Assembly (NCBI RefSeq): GCF_900108295.1
Contig: NZ_FNWK01000001.1
Location: forward strand, 1,674,001-1,738,000
Direction: 5' to 3'
From: Sphingopyxis sp. YR583
Lineage (GTDB): Bacteria > Pseudomonadota > Alphaproteobacteria > Sphingomonadales > Sphingomonadaceae
Length of the DNA stretch: 64,000 nt
Shown: positions 37,237 to 52,157 of the stretch, in pieces
How positions within the stretch are numbered: the first letter of the stretch is position 1
How the letters are laid out: every line of letters begins with the position of its first letter
Notes under the pieces: generated by a model
What the model saw: only the letters and a program-made list of their open reading frames with translations
Told to the model about the DNA's origin: nothing
Database searches by the model: none
Program-made: the position numbers and the translations under genes

Positions 37237-37829
37237 TGCGGCGCCAGCCCGGTGGTGCGGAGCCACGCCAGCAAGGGAAGCATCGGCATGCCGATGATGG
37301 TCCAGGGGTCGCCCTCGACCCGTTCGAACAATTGCACGCCCGCTCCTTCGATTTCGTAACAGCCGACGGTCCAGCGAATGCTGTCCCAGTTTTGCGCGAC
37401 ATAGTCGGCGATAAAGGCATCCGACAAGGGACGCATCCACAGCTTCGCTTCGCCGATCGCGCGCCAGACGGGCGCACCGTCGCGCGCGGCGACCGCGGCG
37501 CTGAACAGCCGGTGGCGCGTGCCCGCCATGCGGCGGAGATGGCGCGCGGCGTCTTCGGGGCTTTCGGGCTTGGCGAGCATCATTCCGTCGTCGAGCGCGA
37601 GGGTGGAGTCAGCGCCGATCACCGTAACGCCCGGAAGCCGCGAAGAGATTTTGATCGCCTTCGCCTCGGCGAGCGCGTCAGCAATGTTGCGCGGTGTCTG
37701 ACCGGCAGCGAGCAACGAAGCGGTGAGCGCTTCTTCGTCGACATGCGCGGCGGAGGTTTCGAAAGTGAGCCCGGCGGCACGGAGCATCGCGGCGCGGCCG
37801 CTGCTTTGCGAGGCGAGGAGAAGCGTCAT
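37233..37829 (-). CDS. maf: Maf-family nucleotide pyrophosphatase
   Basis: A house-cleaning pyrophosphatase that hydrolyses non-canonical nucleoside triphosphates. The 198-residue protein begins MTLLLASQSSGRAAMLRAAG with the (S/A)SxSxRR-type motif, and contains VIGADSTLALDDGMMLAKPE (catalytic Asp region) and the C-terminal GVQLFERVEGDPWTIIGMP. The ends overlap aroE and ppsR. The gene order ppsR-maf-aroE-coaE-dnaQ is a single coupled run. Confidence 0.94.
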   Translation of the reverse strand: MTLLLASQSSGRAAMLRAAGLTFETSAAHVDEEALTASLLAAGQTPRNIADALAEAKAIKISSRLPGVTVIGADSTLALDDGMMLAKPESPEDAARHLRRMAGTRHRLFSAAVAARDGAPVWRAIGEAKLWMRPLSDAFIADYVAQNWDSIRWTVGCYEIEGAGVQLFERVEGDPWTIIGMPMLPLLAWLRTTGLAPQ

Positions 37830-38638
37830 GCGGCGCCGCGGTCCTCGACGAGCTTGATCACCGCGGCGGCGGTTTCCTCGATCGAGCGGCGCGTGACGTC
37901 GATCACCGGCCAGCCATTGTCAGCGAACATGCGGCGCGCATAGGCGAGTTCGGCCTTCACGCGTTCGTCGTCGACATAAGCGGTTTCGGGGGCCTGGTTG
38001 AGCGAGAGCAACCGGTTGCGACGGACCTGTACGAGCCGGTCGAGCCCGGTGGTGAGGCCGACGACCATCGGCCGCTTCAGGTTGAACAGCGCATTCGGCG
38101 GCGGCGATTCGGGGACGATGGGGATATTCGCGGTCTTGAAACCGCGATTGGCGAGATAGATGCTCGTCGGGGTTTTCGAGGTACGCGATACGCCCGCGAG
38201 CACGATGTCCGCCTGTTCCCAATTTTCCCAGCCGATGCCGTCATCGTGCGCGACGGTGAACTGGATCGCCTCGACCCGCGCGAAATAGGCGGCGTCGAGC
38301 TGGTGCTGGCGGCCGGGACGCGCCTTCGCCTCTTGTCCGAGCATCCGCGACAGCGCATCGGTGACCGCATCGAGCGCGGCAACCGTCGGCAGGCCCTGCG
38401 CACTCGCGCGGCGCTCGAGGCTGACGCGCAGCTCGCCGTTGACCAGCGTGAAAAGGATCATGCCGGGGCTCGCCTGCACCTCGGCCATGATGCGGTCGAG
38501 ATGCGATTCCGATCGCACCATCGGCCAGAAATGGCGCACGACCTCGACATCGTCGAACTGCGCGATCGCCGCCTTGGCGATATTTTCGAGTGTCTCGCCC
38601 GTGGAGTCGGATATGAGATGCAGGTGAAGCCGGCCCAT
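37826..38638 (-). CDS. ppsR: Pyruvate, phosphate dikinase regulatory protein (DUF299 kinase/pyrophosphorylase)
   Basis: A bifunctional ADP-dependent kinase and Pi-dependent pyrophosphorylase that controls PPDK or PEP synthase by threonine phosphorylation. The start at 38638 (MGRLHLHLISDSTGETLENI) matches the conserved N-terminus; sequence upstream is in the origin region. The P-loop-like GVSRTSKTPTSIYLANRGFK is diagnostic. It is 270 residues, normal. It is the gene next to hemE across the origin in Caulobacter and its relatives, and it is divergent from hemE here. Confidence 0.94.
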   Translation of the reverse strand: MGRLHLHLISDSTGETLENIAKAAIAQFDDVEVVRHFWPMVRSESHLDRIMAEVQASPGMILFTLVNGELRVSLERRASAQGLPTVAALDAVTDALSRMLGQEAKARPGRQHQLDAAYFARVEAIQFTVAHDDGIGWENWEQADIVLAGVSRTSKTPTSIYLANRGFKTANIPIVPESPPPNALFNLKRPMVVGLTTGLDRLVQVRRNRLLSLNQAPETAYVDDERVKAELAYARRMFADNGWPVIDVTRRSIEETAAAVIKLVEDRGAA

Positions 38639-38696
38639 CGCCGCACCATGGCGGGAAAGCTGCGAAAAAGGCAAGTCGCGAAGCGATTGAGGGGCC

Positions 38697-38705
38697 TGTG
38701 GATAA
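38697..38705 (-). promoter_or_regulatory. DnaA box 1
   Basis: TGTGGATAA on the plus strand is the exact complement of consensus TTATCCACA. It is 59 bp from the ppsR start, at the left end of the candidate origin. Confidence 0.85.
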
Positions 38706-38778
38706 GTTTTGGCATAAGCGCAGGGACAGTTTCGGCACGCAGGATTCATCCCCGGCCGTGTCGATTCCGCTCCACCGC

Positions 38779-38787
38779 TTATCCACA
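38779..38787 (+). promoter_or_regulatory. DnaA box 2
   Basis: TTATCCACA, the exact consensus, 20 bp before the third box, a spacing of about two helical turns. Confidence 0.85.
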
Positions 38788-38798
38788 AGGGATGAATC

Positions 38799-38807
38799 TT
38801 ATCCACA
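38799..38807 (+). promoter_or_regulatory. DnaA box 3
   Basis: TTATCCACA, exact, followed by the near-match TGTGAATAT at 38811. With box 2 it makes a tight cluster on the side of the AT-rich region. Confidence 0.85.
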
Positions 38808-38976
38808 GGCTGTGAATATGGGGAGAAGCCGGTGCCGACTCTGCCGACATGCCTGCGAGTCCGGGAGTCAAGCTGTTGGCAAAAGGGACGCCCCGGCCTA
38901 AAGCCGCGCTTGTCCGCCGACCAACAAACCACCACAATCCTATTAAATATTATATGAAGAGAGAAAGAGGGACCGC

Positions 38977-40005
38977 GTGAAGGCGTCACCGAAGAGCTTG
39001 CTGGCAACGTTGCGCGGGGTGCGTCAGGAGCGCCCGTCCCTTTGGCTTATGCGCCAGGCTGGACGCTATCTGCCCGAATATCGCGCCCTTCGCGAAACCA
39101 AGGGTGGTTTCCTCGAGCTGTGCTACGACCCAGAGGCGGCGGCCGAAGTGACGTTGCAGCCGATCCGGCGCTTCGGTTTCGACGGCTCGATCCTCTTTTC
39201 CGACATTCTCGTCATTCCGCATGCGCTCGGCCAACATTTGTGGTTCGAGGCAGGCGAGGGTCCGCGCCTCGCACCGCCACTGGTCGACAGCACGCTGGCG
39301 TCGCTCGAGACGGCGCACCAGCGGCTCGATCCGGTCTATGCCACCGTCGCGCGCGTGGCTGCGGCATTGCCGCCCGAAACGACCTTCCTCGGCTTTGCAG
39401 GAAGCCCCTGGACGGTCGCGACCTATATGGTGGCGGGGCAGGGGTCGAAGGATCAGGCGGCGGCGCGGCGGATGGCGTTCGGCGATCCGGCGGCGTTCCA
39501 GGCGATCATCGACGCGATCGTCGATTTGAGCGTCACCTATTTGTCGGGCCAGATCGAAAATGGCGTCGATGCCGTGCAATTGTTCGACAGTTGGGCCGGC
39601 AGCCTGAGCCCCGCGCAATATGAGCAATGGGTGATCGCGCCCAATGCCGAGATCGTGCGGCGACTGAAGGCGCTCCATCCCAATACGCCGATCATCGGCT
39701 TTCCAAAGGGGGCCGGCGGCAAGCTGCGCGCCTATGCCGACGAGACGGGCGTCGATGCGATTGGGCTCGACGAGACGGTCGATCCCGTTTGGGCGGATGC
39801 GGCCTTGCCGTCACATCTTCCCGTACAGGGCAATCTCGACCCGCTGGCGCTCGTCGCGGGCGGCAGCGCGCTCGATATGGCGATCGACCGTATCCTTGCG
39901 GCTTTCCCTTCGCGTCCCCATATCTTCAATCTCGGCCATGGCATCGTGCCCGACACGCCGATCGCCCATGTCGAACATCTGATCAAACGCGTTCGCGGCG
40001 GGTAA
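38977..40005 (+). CDS. hemE: Uroporphyrinogen decarboxylase
   Basis: It decarboxylates uroporphyrinogen III to coproporphyrinogen III in heme synthesis. GTG 38977 with an upstream AGAGG site is the start. The N-terminal signature PSLWLMRQAGRYLPEYRALR is present and GFAGSPWTVATYMVAGQGSK is the second. The 342-residue length is typical. It is followed four bases later by hemJ, so both heme enzymes are probably cotranscribed. It abuts the replication origin. Confidence 0.97.
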   Translation: MKASPKSLLATLRGVRQERPSLWLMRQAGRYLPEYRALRETKGGFLELCYDPEAAAEVTLQPIRRFGFDGSILFSDILVIPHALGQHLWFEAGEGPRLAPPLVDSTLASLETAHQRLDPVYATVARVAAALPPETTFLGFAGSPWTVATYMVAGQGSKDQAAARRMAFGDPAAFQAIIDAIVDLSVTYLSGQIENGVDAVQLFDSWAGSLSPAQYEQWVIAPNAEIVRRLKALHPNTPIIGFPKGAGGKLRAYADETGVDAIGLDETVDPVWADAALPSHLPVQGNLDPLALVAGGSALDMAIDRILAAFPSRPHIFNLGHGIVPDTPIAHVEHLIKRVRGG

Positions 40006-47818: not shown

Positions 47819-47834
47819 TGTTCCACGTGAAACA
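47819..47834. promoter_or_regulatory. parS: parS site 1 (mnmE-mnmG gap)
   Basis: TGTTCCACGTGAAACA, one base off a perfect palindrome, begins in the base after the mnmE TGA. This matches the bacterial parS consensus (TGTTTCACGTGAAACA) bound by ParB. Confidence 0.92.
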
Positions 47835-47893: not shown

Positions 47894-49762
47894 ATGCAAG
47901 ATCCAGCAATTTTCGATGTCATCGTCGTTGGCGGTGGGCACGCCGGAACCGAGGCCGCGGCCGCGGCGGCGCGGCTTGGCGCACGCGTTGCGCTGGTCAG
48001 TTTCGACCCCGCGCTGATCGGGACGATGTCTTGTAACCCTGCGATCGGGGGGCTCGGCAAGGGCCATCTGATGCGCGAGGTGGATGCGCTCGACGGTTGG
48101 ATGGCGCGCGCTGCCGATAGCGCGGCGATTCATTATCGCATGCTCAACGCGTCGAAGGGCGCAGCGGTGCAGGGTCCGCGCATACAGGCCGACCGCAAAC
48201 TCTATCGCGACGCGATCCAGAATCTACTCGCGGCCGAAGCGGGGATCAGCGTCATTGCTGGTGAGGCCGCGGCGCTTCGGCTGTCGGATGACGGCGGTGT
48301 CGAGGGGCTCGATCTCTCCGACAGAACGGCGCTGGCCGCACGCGCAATAGTCCTCGCGACGGGCACTTTTCTTGGCGGAAAATTGTTCCGGGGCGAGGAG
48401 CGAATGGAGGGCGGGCGCATCGGCGAAGCCGGGGCGCACCGGCTCGCCGACCAATTGCGCGGTGCCGATCTGCCGATGGCGCGGCTGAAGACCGGGACAC
48501 CGCCGCGTCTCGACGGACGGACCATCGATTGGGGGCGGCTGGACGAGCAGGCGTCGGATAGTGCCGAGGGGGCGAACTGGACCTGTTCCACGTGGAACAG
48601 TGGGCGGACGGTGCCTCAGATTTTTTGCGCGATCACGCGCACCAATACCGAAAGCCATAAGATCATCGCGGCGAATCTCGATCGCTCGCCCTTGTTCACT
48701 GGTGCGATCGGTGCCGCGGGACCGCGCTATTGCCCGTCGATCGAGGACAAGATCCATCGCTTCGCCGATCGCGACGGGCATCAGGTCTTTCTCGAACCCG
48801 AGGGGCTTGATAGCGTCCTCGTCTATCCGAACGGAATTTCGACCTCGCTTCCTGCCGATGTGCAACTCGCGATGCTGCGCACGATGGATGGGCTAGAGGC
48901 GGTCGAGATGGTCGTTCCGGGCTATGCGGTCGAATATGATCATATCGATCCCCGCGCGCTCGACCGGACGTTGCAGGTCCGCGCGATGCCCGGCGTGTGG
49001 TGCGCGGGGCAGATCAACGGGACAACCGGATATGAAGAGGCCGCCGCGCAGGGTCTCGTCGCCGGCGCCAATGCTGCGCTGAGCGTGCAGGGGCGCGAGC
49101 CGCTGATCCTCGACCGCAGCGAATCCTATATCGGGGTGATGGTCGACGACCTAGTGCTGCAGGGTGTGACCGAACCCTATCGAATGCTCACCGCGCGTGC
49201 CGAATATCGGCTGCGGCTGCGCGCCGACAATGCCGCGACGCGGTTGACGCCCAAGGGGATTGCACTCGGTCTCGTCCGACCCGCGACCGCGGCGTTGTTC
49301 GCGGTGCGGCAAGTTGAACGCGCCCGCGCAGAGGCACTGCTCGAAGCCGTGGTGACGACTCCCGATTATGCCACGGTCGGCATTGCGTTGCCGGGCGACG
49401 GCATCGCGCGCAAGCGGATCGACCTGCTGCGCTACCCCGATATGTCCATGGCGCGGCTTGCATTGCTCGCGCCCGAGCTCGATTCGATCGACGCGGCGAT
49501 CCTGTCGGAGATTGCCGAGGATGCGCATTATGCACCCTATATCGCGCGTCAGGATTCCGAGCTTCGCGCACTGGCGGCGAATGAGGCGATCAGCCTCGAT
49601 CCGGCGCTCGACTATGGTGCGGTCGGCGGATTGTCGCGCGAAATGGTCGAGCGGTTGACCAAGGCGCGCCCCGAGACATTGGGGCAGGCGGGCCGGATCG
49701 ACGGGGTGACCCCCGCGGCGCTGACCGCGATCATGGTGCATAGCCGGCGGCGTGCGGCGTGA
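47894..49762 (+). CDS. mnmG: tRNA uridine-5-carboxymethylaminomethyl synthesis enzyme MnmG
   Basis: An FAD protein that works with MnmE on tRNA U34. The FAD Rossmann motif is [20 protein letters not shown] (near residue 10), then [20 protein letters not shown] and [13 protein letters not shown]. The C-terminal tRNA/MnmE-binding domain has [19 protein letters not shown]. At 622 residues it is full length. A parS site at 48584-48599 lies in the variable segment after [11 protein letters not shown]. The stop overlaps the rsmG start. Confidence 0.97.
48584..48599. promoter_or_regulatory. parS: parS site 2 (inside mnmG)
   Basis: TGTTCCACGTGGAACA, a perfect palindrome. It encodes CSTWN within the loop region between conserved MnmG blocks, so the site is tolerated by the protein. 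Confidence 0.92.
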
Positions 49763-50406
49763 TCCTCGATAGCGAAGCCGACGCGCGAGCCTGGATCGAG
49801 GCCTCGTTCGCGTCTGCGCCCGACCAGTGGACGAGGCTCGACCGTTTTGCGGACATGCTCGTCGCCGAAAATGCGCGACAGAATCTGATCGCCGCGTCGA
49901 CCATTCCGACTATCTGGGTGCGCCATATTGCCGATAGCGCGCAGCTTTTGTCGTTCGATCGCGACGGTGAAGGCCTTTGGATGGACCTTGGCAGCGGACC
50001 GGGGTTGCCGGGTCTGGTCATCGCAATCCTCGGTTCGCGGCCGATGATGCTCGTCGAATCGCGCAAGCGGCGCTGCGACTTCTTGCGCGCCGTTGTGGCC
50101 GAGCTCGATCTGAAGCATGTCGACGTCGTCGAGGCCCCTTTGGAACGCGTCGAGACGCAGCCGGCCGCGACGATCAGCGCGCGCGCCTTTGCTCCGCTCG
50201 ACAGGCTGATCGACTTGTCCGCCCGTTTTTCCACCGAATCGACGCTCTGGTTGCTGCCAAAAGGTCGAAACGCAGTTAAGGAACTGGCATTGCTGCCGCA
50301 GCCATGGCAGAGAATGTTCCACGTGGAACAGAGCCGCACCGATGCCGAGAGCCAGATACTGGTGGGGCGGGGCCAGATCGGGGCAAAACAGCGAGGAAAG
50401 CGATGA
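49759..50406 (+). CDS. rsmG: 16S rRNA (guanine527-N7)-methyltransferase RsmG
   Basis: A SAM-dependent methyltransferase for 16S rRNA G527. GTG 49759 overlaps the mnmG stop. The SAM motif is [19 protein letters not shown], preceded by [15 protein letters not shown]; the C-terminal [20 protein letters not shown] is also typical. At 215 residues it is normal. It ends with parS site 3 (MFHVEQ), then overlaps parA by three bases (ATGA). Confidence 0.95.
50315..50330. promoter_or_regulatory. parS: parS site 3 (inside rsmG)
   Basis: TGTTCCACGTGGAACA, a perfect palindrome, encoding MFHVEQ near the C-terminus of RsmG and 73 bp upstream of the parA start. Confidence 0.92.
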
Positions 50407-51185
50407 TCCGTATCGCCGTGGCGAACCAGAAGGGCGGGGTCGGCAAGACGACAACGGCGATCAATCTGGCGACCGCGCTCGCGGCAACCGGATGGCGCAC
50501 GCTGATCATCGACCTCGATCCGCAGGGCAATGCGTCGACGGGGCTGGGCATCAAACAGTCGCAGCGCGAATGTTCGAGTTATGAACTTCTGCGCGGCGAT
50601 GCGACGCTGGCGGAATGCGCGATCGCGACCGCCGTGCCGCGGCTCGATATCGTCACCGCGACGGTCGACCTGTCGGGCGCCGAGATCGAGCTGATCGAAT
50701 TTCAGGACCGGCTGCACCGGCTGCAACAGGCATTGTCGAGCGCCGAGGCGGGGCAGTGGGACATTTGCCTGATCGACTGTCCGCCGTCGCTGGGCATGTT
50801 GACGCTCAACGCACTGATCGCCGCCGAATCGTTGATCGTGCCGCTGCAATGCGAATTTTTCGCGCTCGAGGGGCTCAGCCAGTTGCTCACCACGGTCGAG
50901 CGTGTGCGCGAACGTTTCAACCAGAAATTGTCGATCCTCGGCGTCGCGCTGACGATGTTCGACCGCCGTAACCGGCTGACCGATCAGGTATCGGACGATG
51001 TTCGCGAGGTATTGGGGCCCGTGGTGTTCGAAACGGTGATCCCGCGGAACGTCCGCCTGTCCGAAGCGCCGAGCCATGGCTTGCCGGCGCTGATCTATGA
51101 CCATCGCTGCGCCGGATCGGCGGCCTATATCGCGCTCGCGCGCGAACTGATCGACCGGCTTCCCAACGTTCGCAAGGCTGCATAA
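50403..51185 (+). CDS. parA: Chromosome partitioning ATPase ParA (Soj type)
   Basis: A deviant Walker ATPase that drives segregation of the ParB-parS complex. The start at 50403 ([20 protein letters not shown]) has the deviant Walker A KGGVGKTTT; IDLDPQGNASTGLG is the A' motif and LIDCPPSLGMLTLNAL the B motif. It overlaps the rsmG stop and directly precedes parB, as is usual in chromosomal par operons. It has 260 residues and no N-terminal DNA-binding extension, so it is the chromosomal type. Confidence 0.97.
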   Translation: MIRIAVANQKGGVGKTTTAINLATALAATGWRTLIIDLDPQGNASTGLGIKQSQRECSSYELLRGDATLAECAIATAVPRLDIVTATVDLSGAEIELIEFQDRLHRLQQALSSAEAGQWDICLIDCPPSLGMLTLNALIAAESLIVPLQCEFFALEGLSQLLTTVERVRERFNQKLSILGVALTMFDRRNRLTDQVSDDVREVLGPVVFETVIPRNVRLSEAPSHGLPALIYDHRCAGSAAYIALARELIDRLPNVRKAA

Positions 51186-52157
51186 ATGGCTGATAATAAA
51201 GACGAAACGGGATCTGATTCGACACCAGCGCGGAAGCGGCCCTCGGGGCTGGGGCGCGGCCTTAACGCGTTGTTCGGCGATGTTGCAGTCGAAGCGCCGG
51301 TGCTGGCGACGCCGGGCGGCGCTGCAAAGGCCGCCGCGCCCGTATCGGGCGATGCCGTGCAGCACGTCGGAGTCGGAACGATTCGCCCGCTCCCCGGTCA
51401 GCCGCGCCGTCATTTCGACGAGAATGCGATCGCCGAGCTGGCCGATTCGATCGGGCTGCGCGGATTGCTGCAGCCAATCATCGTCCGTCGTTCGCCCGAT
51501 GGTGACGGCTACCAGCTCGTCGCGGGCGAGCGGCGCTGGCGCGCGGCGCAGCGTGCGGGCCTGCACCAGATTCCTGCGCTTGTGCGCGAACTCGATGACG
51601 CCGCGACCTATGAGATTGCGCTCGTCGAGAATATCCAGCGCCAAGACCTCAACGCGATCGAAGAGGCGAGCGCCTATCGCCGACTGATCGAGGATTTCGG
51701 GCATAATCAGGAAGCGCTCGCGAGACTGGTGGGCAAGTCGCGCAGCCATGTTGCGAACCTGATGCGTCTGCTCGACCTGCCCGACAGCGTGCAGGCGCTC
51801 GTCGGCGACGGGTCGCTCGCGATGGGGCATGCGCGCGCGTTGATCGGCGTCGACGACGCCGAAGCGATCGCGCGCCGCGTCGCAAAGGAAGGGCTGTCGG
51901 TCCGCGCGGTCGAGGCGCTGGTGCGTGCCGACAAGGGCGGCGAGGCGCCGCGCAAGACATCGGGCGATTCGAGGCCACCGGGCGAGGTCGGTCGCGATCC
52001 CGATATCGTGGCGGTCGAACGCCACCTGTCCGAGCTGCTCGGCATCGGGGTCGGAATCCAATATGCCGGCGAGGGCAAGGGTGCGCTGACGCTGAAATTC
52101 GCGTCGCTCGATCAGCTCGACATGATTTGCCAGCGGTTGTCGGGCGAATCGATCTGA
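51186..52157 (+). CDS. parB: Chromosome partitioning CTPase/DNA-binding protein ParB
   Basis: It binds parS and spreads as a CTP-dependent clamp. The N-terminal ParA-activating segment is PSGLGRGLNALFGDVAVEAP, followed by the CTP-binding domain with ELADSIGLRGLLQPIIVRRS and the GERRxRA motif (VAGERRWRAAQRAGL). The helix-turn-helix lies at EALARLVGKSRSHVANLMRL, followed by a dimerization domain at the C-terminus. It is 323 residues, normal. It directly follows parA. Confidence 0.97.
   Translation: MADNKDETGSDSTPARKRPSGLGRGLNALFGDVAVEAPVLATPGGAAKAAAPVSGDAVQHVGVGTIRPLPGQPRRHFDENAIAELADSIGLRGLLQPIIVRRSPDGDGYQLVAGERRWRAAQRAGLHQIPALVRELDDAATYEIALVENIQRQDLNAIEEASAYRRLIEDFGHNQEALARLVGKSRSHVANLMRLLDLPDSVQALVGDGSLAMGHARALIGVDDAEAIARRVAKEGLSVRAVEALVRADKGGEAPRKTSGDSRPPGEVGRDPDIVAVERHLSELLGIGVGIQYAGEGKGALTLKFASLDQLDMICQRLSGESI

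Follow-up and report, generated by a model that had tools for sequence, protein, structure and literature searches.

The ppsR–hemE spacer of a Sphingopyxis genome, very probably its chromosomal replication origin, and the dense cluster of GANTC sites among its DnaA boxes

The chromosomal origin of Caulobacter crescentus, Cori, presumably shares its hemE gene setting with the locus described here. Cori contains GANTC sites (PMC3973325), as does the locus of the present study, and is controlled by CtrA at TTAA-N7-TTAA (PMC4285127), whereas the Sphingopyxis spacer is devoid of such a box. Within the genus itself, the oriC of Sphingopyxis granuli TFA has been located near hemE, a comparison of intergenic regions within Sphingopyxis having revealed the DnaA boxes and the DNA unwinding element (DUE), and the same paper states that the DoriC entry of S. 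alaskensis should move to hemE (PMC4741004); its main text contains no match for GANTC or CtrA. The origin of strain TFA is like the present one in genus, in its position at hemE, in the conservation of its DnaA boxes and in its putative DUE (PMC4741004), but it belongs to a genome of 4.68 Mb, compared with 4.31 Mb here, and probably to a different species.

The window, i.e. the whole stretch of 64,000 nucleotides of Sphingopyxis sp. YR583 that was analysed, contains a spacer of 338 bp (38639–38976) that an earlier note had put forward as a candidate oriC. It is free of genes, as claimed there, with ppsR starting at 38638 on the minus strand and hemE at 38977 on the plus strand:

37826–38638, minus strand: ppsR, encoding a pyruvate phosphate dikinase/PEP synthase regulator and bordering the probable origin on the left; 326 bits with NCBIfam NF003742, above the cut-off
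38977–40005, plus strand: hemE, encoding uroporphyrinogen decarboxylase and bordering the probable origin on the right, with a GTG start; 389 bits with TIGR01464, above the cut-off

The GC content of the spacer is 56.5%, versus 64.2% in the window, and hemE is 92% identical to its orthologues from Sphingopyxis sp. HIX and S. panaciterrae. Neither Rfam families at the gathering threshold nor tRNA genes were found within the 64-kb window. The arrangement is that of a hemE-type alphaproteobacterial origin, with divergent ppsR (DUF299) and hemE as flanks and parAB and parS nearby, parA and parB being named from their translations only. Taking together the rarity of the boxes, their conservation, the parS/parAB neighbourhood, the genome-scale skew and the published genus-level call, the ppsR–hemE spacer is very probably the chromosomal oriC of this Sphingopyxis, and the candidate is to that extent supported (PMC4741004). 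It should be pointed out that an origin at hemE is a correct but already known annotation, the genus-level call being in print (PMC4741004).

The elements recognized in the spacer, apart from the remaining GANTC sites, are as follows:

38697–38705, minus strand: DnaA box 1, exact TTATCCACA by motif scan; unchanged in 18 of 23 Sphingopyxis-like spacers
38743–38752, plus strand: left arm GATTCATCCC of a perfect 10-bp inverted repeat, carrying GANTC site 1 (38743); GATTCATCC identical in 12 of 23 Sphingopyxis-like spacers
38779–38787, plus strand: DnaA box 2, exact TTATCCACA by motif scan; identical in 9 of 23 Sphingopyxis-like spacers, several relatives having TTGTCCACA
38789–38798, plus strand: right arm GGGATGAATC of the perfect 10-bp repeat, carrying GANTC site 3 (38794)
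38799–38807, plus strand: DnaA box 3, exact TTATCCACA in tandem with box 2 at a distance of 20 bp; unchanged in 19 of 23 Sphingopyxis-like spacers
38811–38819, minus strand: degenerate DnaA box 4, TGTGAATAT, facing box 3, with two mismatches; its TGTG is present in 23 of 23 Sphingopyxis-like spacers
38876–38904, plus strand: putative hemE promoter TTGGCA-N17-TAAAGC (inferred); TGTTGGCA in 23 of 23 Sphingopyxis-like spacers
38941–38956, plus strand: AT-rich element TATTAAATATTATATG, by its composition a putative DNA unwinding element, its position being kept in relatives

The three exact boxes reported in the earlier note, one of them reversed and two in tandem 20 bp apart, were thus all found again, at 38697 (minus), 38779 (plus) and 38799 (plus), together with its one near match at 38811–38819; the latter, read by eye, is absent from the list of the one-mismatch scan because it has two mismatches. 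Exact copies of TTATCCACA are confined within the window to the three of the spacer, and the entire genome (4,312,099 bases) contains only six, so that half of them fall inside 111 bp of the spacer, a clustering beyond chance. Concerning TTATNCACA, it occurs 20 times in the genome, and outside the spacer group no two of its copies are less than 1 kb apart. The AT-rich stretch described as lying against hemE is there as well, at 38941–38956; it adjoins the boxes, and its role in unwinding is putative. As a separate observation, DnaA box 2 is flanked by the perfect inverted repeat GATTCATCCC/GGGATGAATC, with one GANTC in each arm, which makes the repeat a possible binding site for an origin protein.

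The conservation of these elements was followed in 110 loci, taken as 80 and 30 from two sets, with the window's own genome among the 30. Usable ppsR–hemE spacers were obtained from 104 of them, the six loci without an adjacent divergent ppsR being left out. The 23 Sphingopyxis-like spacers comprise 19 from this and other genomes of the genus and four from loci whose hemE shows 91–92% identity, one of the four being titled only Sphingomonadales; with 66 others, mostly from Sphingomonadaceae and Erythrobacteraceae, they make up the 89 family spacers. None of the 23 Sphingopyxis-like spacers lacks an exact box, and each has two or more boxes when one mismatch is allowed, so that the loss of boxes in close relatives, which the earlier note had named as a refutation, was not seen. 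In the alignment of these 23 spacers, conserved blocks alternate with freely varying sequence, as would be expected of protein-binding sites. Among the 89 family spacers, at least two boxes with up to one mismatch are present in 72 and fewer than two in 17; the facing pair formed by boxes 3 and 4, CACAG[G/C]CTGTG, is exact in 46 and has at most one mismatch in 63. In 15 more distant spacers the facing pair is missing throughout (0/15), and at least two near-exact boxes were found in eight. The most AT-rich 30-mer ends no more than 60 bp from hemE in 83 of the 89 family spacers.

The motif TTGGCA-N17-TA is present in 52 of the 89 family spacers and is preceded within 9 bp by GAGTC in 36 of the 89. 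A simple consensus scan of 38600–39000 yielded no promoter or terminator of the E. coli type, and the call is therefore one from conservation; on this basis, TTGGCA-N17-TAAAGC is probably the hemE promoter, with the DnaA boxes on one side of it and the AT-rich element on the other.

The neighbourhood to the right of the spacer includes a partition locus:

47819–47834, strand unassigned: parS-like site TGTTCCACGTGAAACA, motif scan with up to two mismatches
48584–48599, strand unassigned: parS-like site TGTTCCACGTGGAACA, motif scan with up to two mismatches
50315–50330, strand unassigned: parS-like site TGTTCCACGTGGAACA, motif scan with up to two mismatches
50403–52157, plus strand: parA and parB, named from translated sequences in the list of open reading frames

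With up to two mismatches allowed, the whole genome has five parS-like places, three of which form its only group, 9–11.5 kb right of the spacer and inside a gene series that, judged by the translations, is trmE-gidA-gidB-parA-parB; the remaining two occur singly and at a distance on the same contig. The strand bias described earlier, mostly minus on the left and mostly plus on the right, was reproduced with a custom codon-usage gene caller, which on the left of the spacer counted 43 genes on the minus strand and 7 on the plus strand, and on its right 17 on the plus strand and 6 on the minus strand. The gene dnaA itself lies at position 1,978,334 of contig C1, 266 kb from the spacer, and no TTATNCACA was found within 100 kb of it; an origin at dnaA has been rejected on this ground.

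The skew supports the origin on the large scale only. In this genome, the mean GC skew is −0.013 in 14 samples on the left and +0.031 in 10 samples on the right (Mann-Whitney p 0.003, with a 6-kb overlap between two samples on the left). In the closed genome of a relative (G005), sampled in 40 stretches of 20 kb, the minima of the GC and keto skews were found at 4.125 and 4.105 Mb; their distances of 27 and 48 kb to the spacer, at approximately 4.1525 Mb, are within about 1% of the chromosome length, while the maxima lie approximately 100 kb from the half-turn. The expectation of a skew minimum near 38.8 kb was thus borne out only in part: the sampled minima of the relative fall near the spacer, but the cumulative GC-skew minimum within the window lies at approximately 12–15 kb, and the strand-corrected fit, in which the skew at codon-degenerate sites is fitted together with gene strand, places the switch left of the boxes in both genomes. 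In this genome the best position is 35 kb left of the boxes (accepted range 35–52 kb left), with a penalty of 44.7 at the boxes; in G005 it is 90 kb left (accepted 35–182 kb left), with a penalty of 49.9. Much of this penalty is due to the operons of ribosomal proteins and elongation factors, eight of ten scanned proteins belonging to such operons: without the block, the penalties at the boxes fall to 13.2 in this genome and 10.5 in G005. The preferred offsets are nevertheless unchanged (35 and 90 kb to the left), and the accepted range still does not include the boxes. Codon preference, a past rearrangement or a real offset may each explain the residual mismatch. It may be added that between 11000 and 38800 of the window the strand-corrected GC skew resembles that of the right arm, which the ribosomal-protein and elongation-factor operons explain only in part.

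The left-shifted switch, as well as the presence inside the spacer of the conserved TTGGCA-N17-TA, probably the hemE promoter, would suit a different reading, according to which the boxes belong to a DnaA-regulated divergent ppsR/hemE promoter or serve as a DnaA titration site, the true origin being elsewhere, for instance at dnaA or on the far left side of the ribosomal operons. The TTATNCACA scan of the genome, however, revealed no second group of boxes, either in the region of the switch preferred by the skew or anywhere else, and none within 100 kb of dnaA; moreover, the parS-like group lies beside the ppsR–hemE spacer, and the genus-level call places oriC at hemE (PMC4741004). We regard that reading as highly improbable.

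If the spacer is the origin, then, by analogy with known origins, DnaA-ATP would bind box 1 and the cluster of box 2, box 3 and the degenerate box 4, and the DnaA oligomer would extend towards hemE, where it would open the AT-rich element that precedes the start codon of the gene. The melting may be aided by transcription from the putative hemE promoter, which lies on the way from the boxes to this element. Two forks would then leave in both directions, and ParB, acting at the parS-like sites 9–11.5 kb to the right, may segregate the new origins.

The second feature of the spacer, which the earlier note does not mention, is its richness in GANTC, the CcrM site. In addition to sites 1 and 3 in the arms of the inverted repeat, it contains the following:

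38762–38767, plus strand: CGATTC block with GANTC site 2 (38763); block identical in 23 of 23 Sphingopyxis-like spacers, the column of the site being GANTC in 30 of 89
38836–38841, plus strand: CGACTC block with GANTC site 4 (38837); 23 of 23 Sphingopyxis-like spacers, alignment column 395, GANTC in 66 of 89
38857–38869, plus strand: GANTC sites 5 (38857) and 6 (38865); site 6 is GAGTCAA in 21 of 23 Sphingopyxis-like spacers, its column being GANTC in 40 of 89

The six sites occupy 38743–38869, the last of them ending 6 bp before the putative −35 element of hemE. Among 6,367 sliding segments of 338 bp across the window, at least six GANTC were counted in 22, all of them over this cluster. The origin cluster is also the densest 130-bp GANTC cluster in the sampled stretches of this genome (704 kb, of which 6 kb were sampled twice), where the background is 1.6 per kb; in the 800 kb sampled from G005, the origin cluster, with five GANTC, shares the highest density with two others. 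Across relatives, the density is 13.7 per kb in the 23 Sphingopyxis-like spacers and 13.9 per kb in 64 further ones (87 spacers in total, two near copies having been removed), versus 2.8 and 2.3 per kb, respectively, in the whole loci, and 0.4–5.6 per kb for seven control palindromes of like make-up. Eleven GANTC in 302–312 bp were counted in each of five spacers, all titled Sphingomonas, and 13 in 448 bp in another spacer. Since four spacers from Hyphomicrobiales and similar bacteria have 9.2 per kb, the excess is not confined to sphingomonads.

In the alignment, GANTC accounts for 412 sites in 84 columns, ten of which are common to at least eight spacers, compared with 32–145 sites in 24–40 columns for the seven control palindromes; these column counts depend on a single MAFFT alignment and are inflated where sites have slipped into neighbouring columns. 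The alignment indicates that the sites are a mixture of shared and lineage-specific positions, not all of them inherited copies.

The surplus of methylation sites around the DnaA boxes (13.7–13.9 GANTC per kb) is accompanied by a methyltransferase candidate in the genome. A RAMA-domain protein of CcrM-like length, which we take to be of the CcrM type, was detected in 29 of 31 genomes, including this one, and GcrA was detected in 30 of the 31; both are missing from a single genome, which is 88% complete. The presence of CcrM alone is unlikely to fix the density of GANTC at the origin, since in other families of the order 10 of 11 spacers contain only 0–3 GANTC (the remaining one has 13) in spite of a RAMA-domain protein in 11 of 12 genomes. 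Concerning CtrA, no TTAA-N7-TTAA was found in the spacer when scanned for exact full sites, and such boxes are present in just two of the 89 family spacers; a CtrA-box control of the Caulobacter type has been rejected for this origin. The GANTC excess leads to a testable question, whether bacteria with hardly any CtrA boxes at the origin use cell-cycle methylation instead.

One answer would be that initiation in sphingomonads is gated by CcrM methylation of the maintained GANTC cluster, situated among the DnaA boxes and at the putative hemE promoter, either because a hemimethylated origin is unable to refire or because GcrA acts on the origin promoter. If true, this would be a GANTC counterpart of the GATC/SeqA control at a DnaA-dependent origin. 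No protein that recognizes hemimethylated GANTC at an origin is known to us. In E. coli, where oriC is under Dam/SeqA, the methylation sites are likewise dense among the DnaA boxes, with eleven GATC (PMC10073500) to be set beside the 11 GANTC in the spacers of five relatives, although the methyltransferase motif is a different one (GATC versus GANTC). A hemimethylated origin has also been proposed, by analogy with Dam/SeqA, to hold back refiring at ori2 of Agrobacterium tumefaciens, on which CcrM has an effect, but ori2 is RepC-dependent, and the DnaA-dependent ori1 shows no clear effect of CcrM (PMC11514494). The novelty of the idea is therefore limited to origins of this kind and to this group. 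A search of the open-access literature found no papers on GANTC at sphingomonad origins. The lack of a clear effect on ori1 (PMC11514494) counts against gating, as do two further reports: in Caulobacter the origin contains GANTC sites, yet CcrM is reportedly not required for the control of initiation (PMC3973325), and in Sphingomonas melonis an influence of CtrA on replication has been described (PMC8116508). We consider gating by CcrM unlikely.

The cluster could instead represent the intergenic GANTC excess known from CcrM-bearing alphaproteobacteria, or serve the transcription of hemE, without any role in initiation. The over-representation of GANTC between genes is established, the Caulobacter result just cited (PMC3973325) points the same way, and the ctrA promoters of Sphingomonadales carry up to five GANTC in 300 bp (PMC8116508). 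As a promoter control, the 200 bp before rho in 61 loci contain 3.8 GANTC per kb, above the 1.6 of the sampled genome, and dense clusters of five GANTC are found elsewhere, too, both in this genome and in G005. Against this, the origin spacers of the same 61 loci have 13.3 per kb, the origin cluster is the densest sampled in this genome and shares the first place in G005, and the number of sites and columns of GANTC lies above the ranges of the seven control palindromes. On balance, an intergenic or hemE-related excess seems a reasonably probable explanation.

Finally, five GANTC in 130 bp were observed at C1:1655179–1655308, directly upstream of an open reading frame of 238 amino acids. The same frame in G005 also has a dense GANTC cluster upstream (L165:278–402), the strand of the frame being opposite in the two genomes; in both, the cluster lies approximately 57–62 kb left of the origin.
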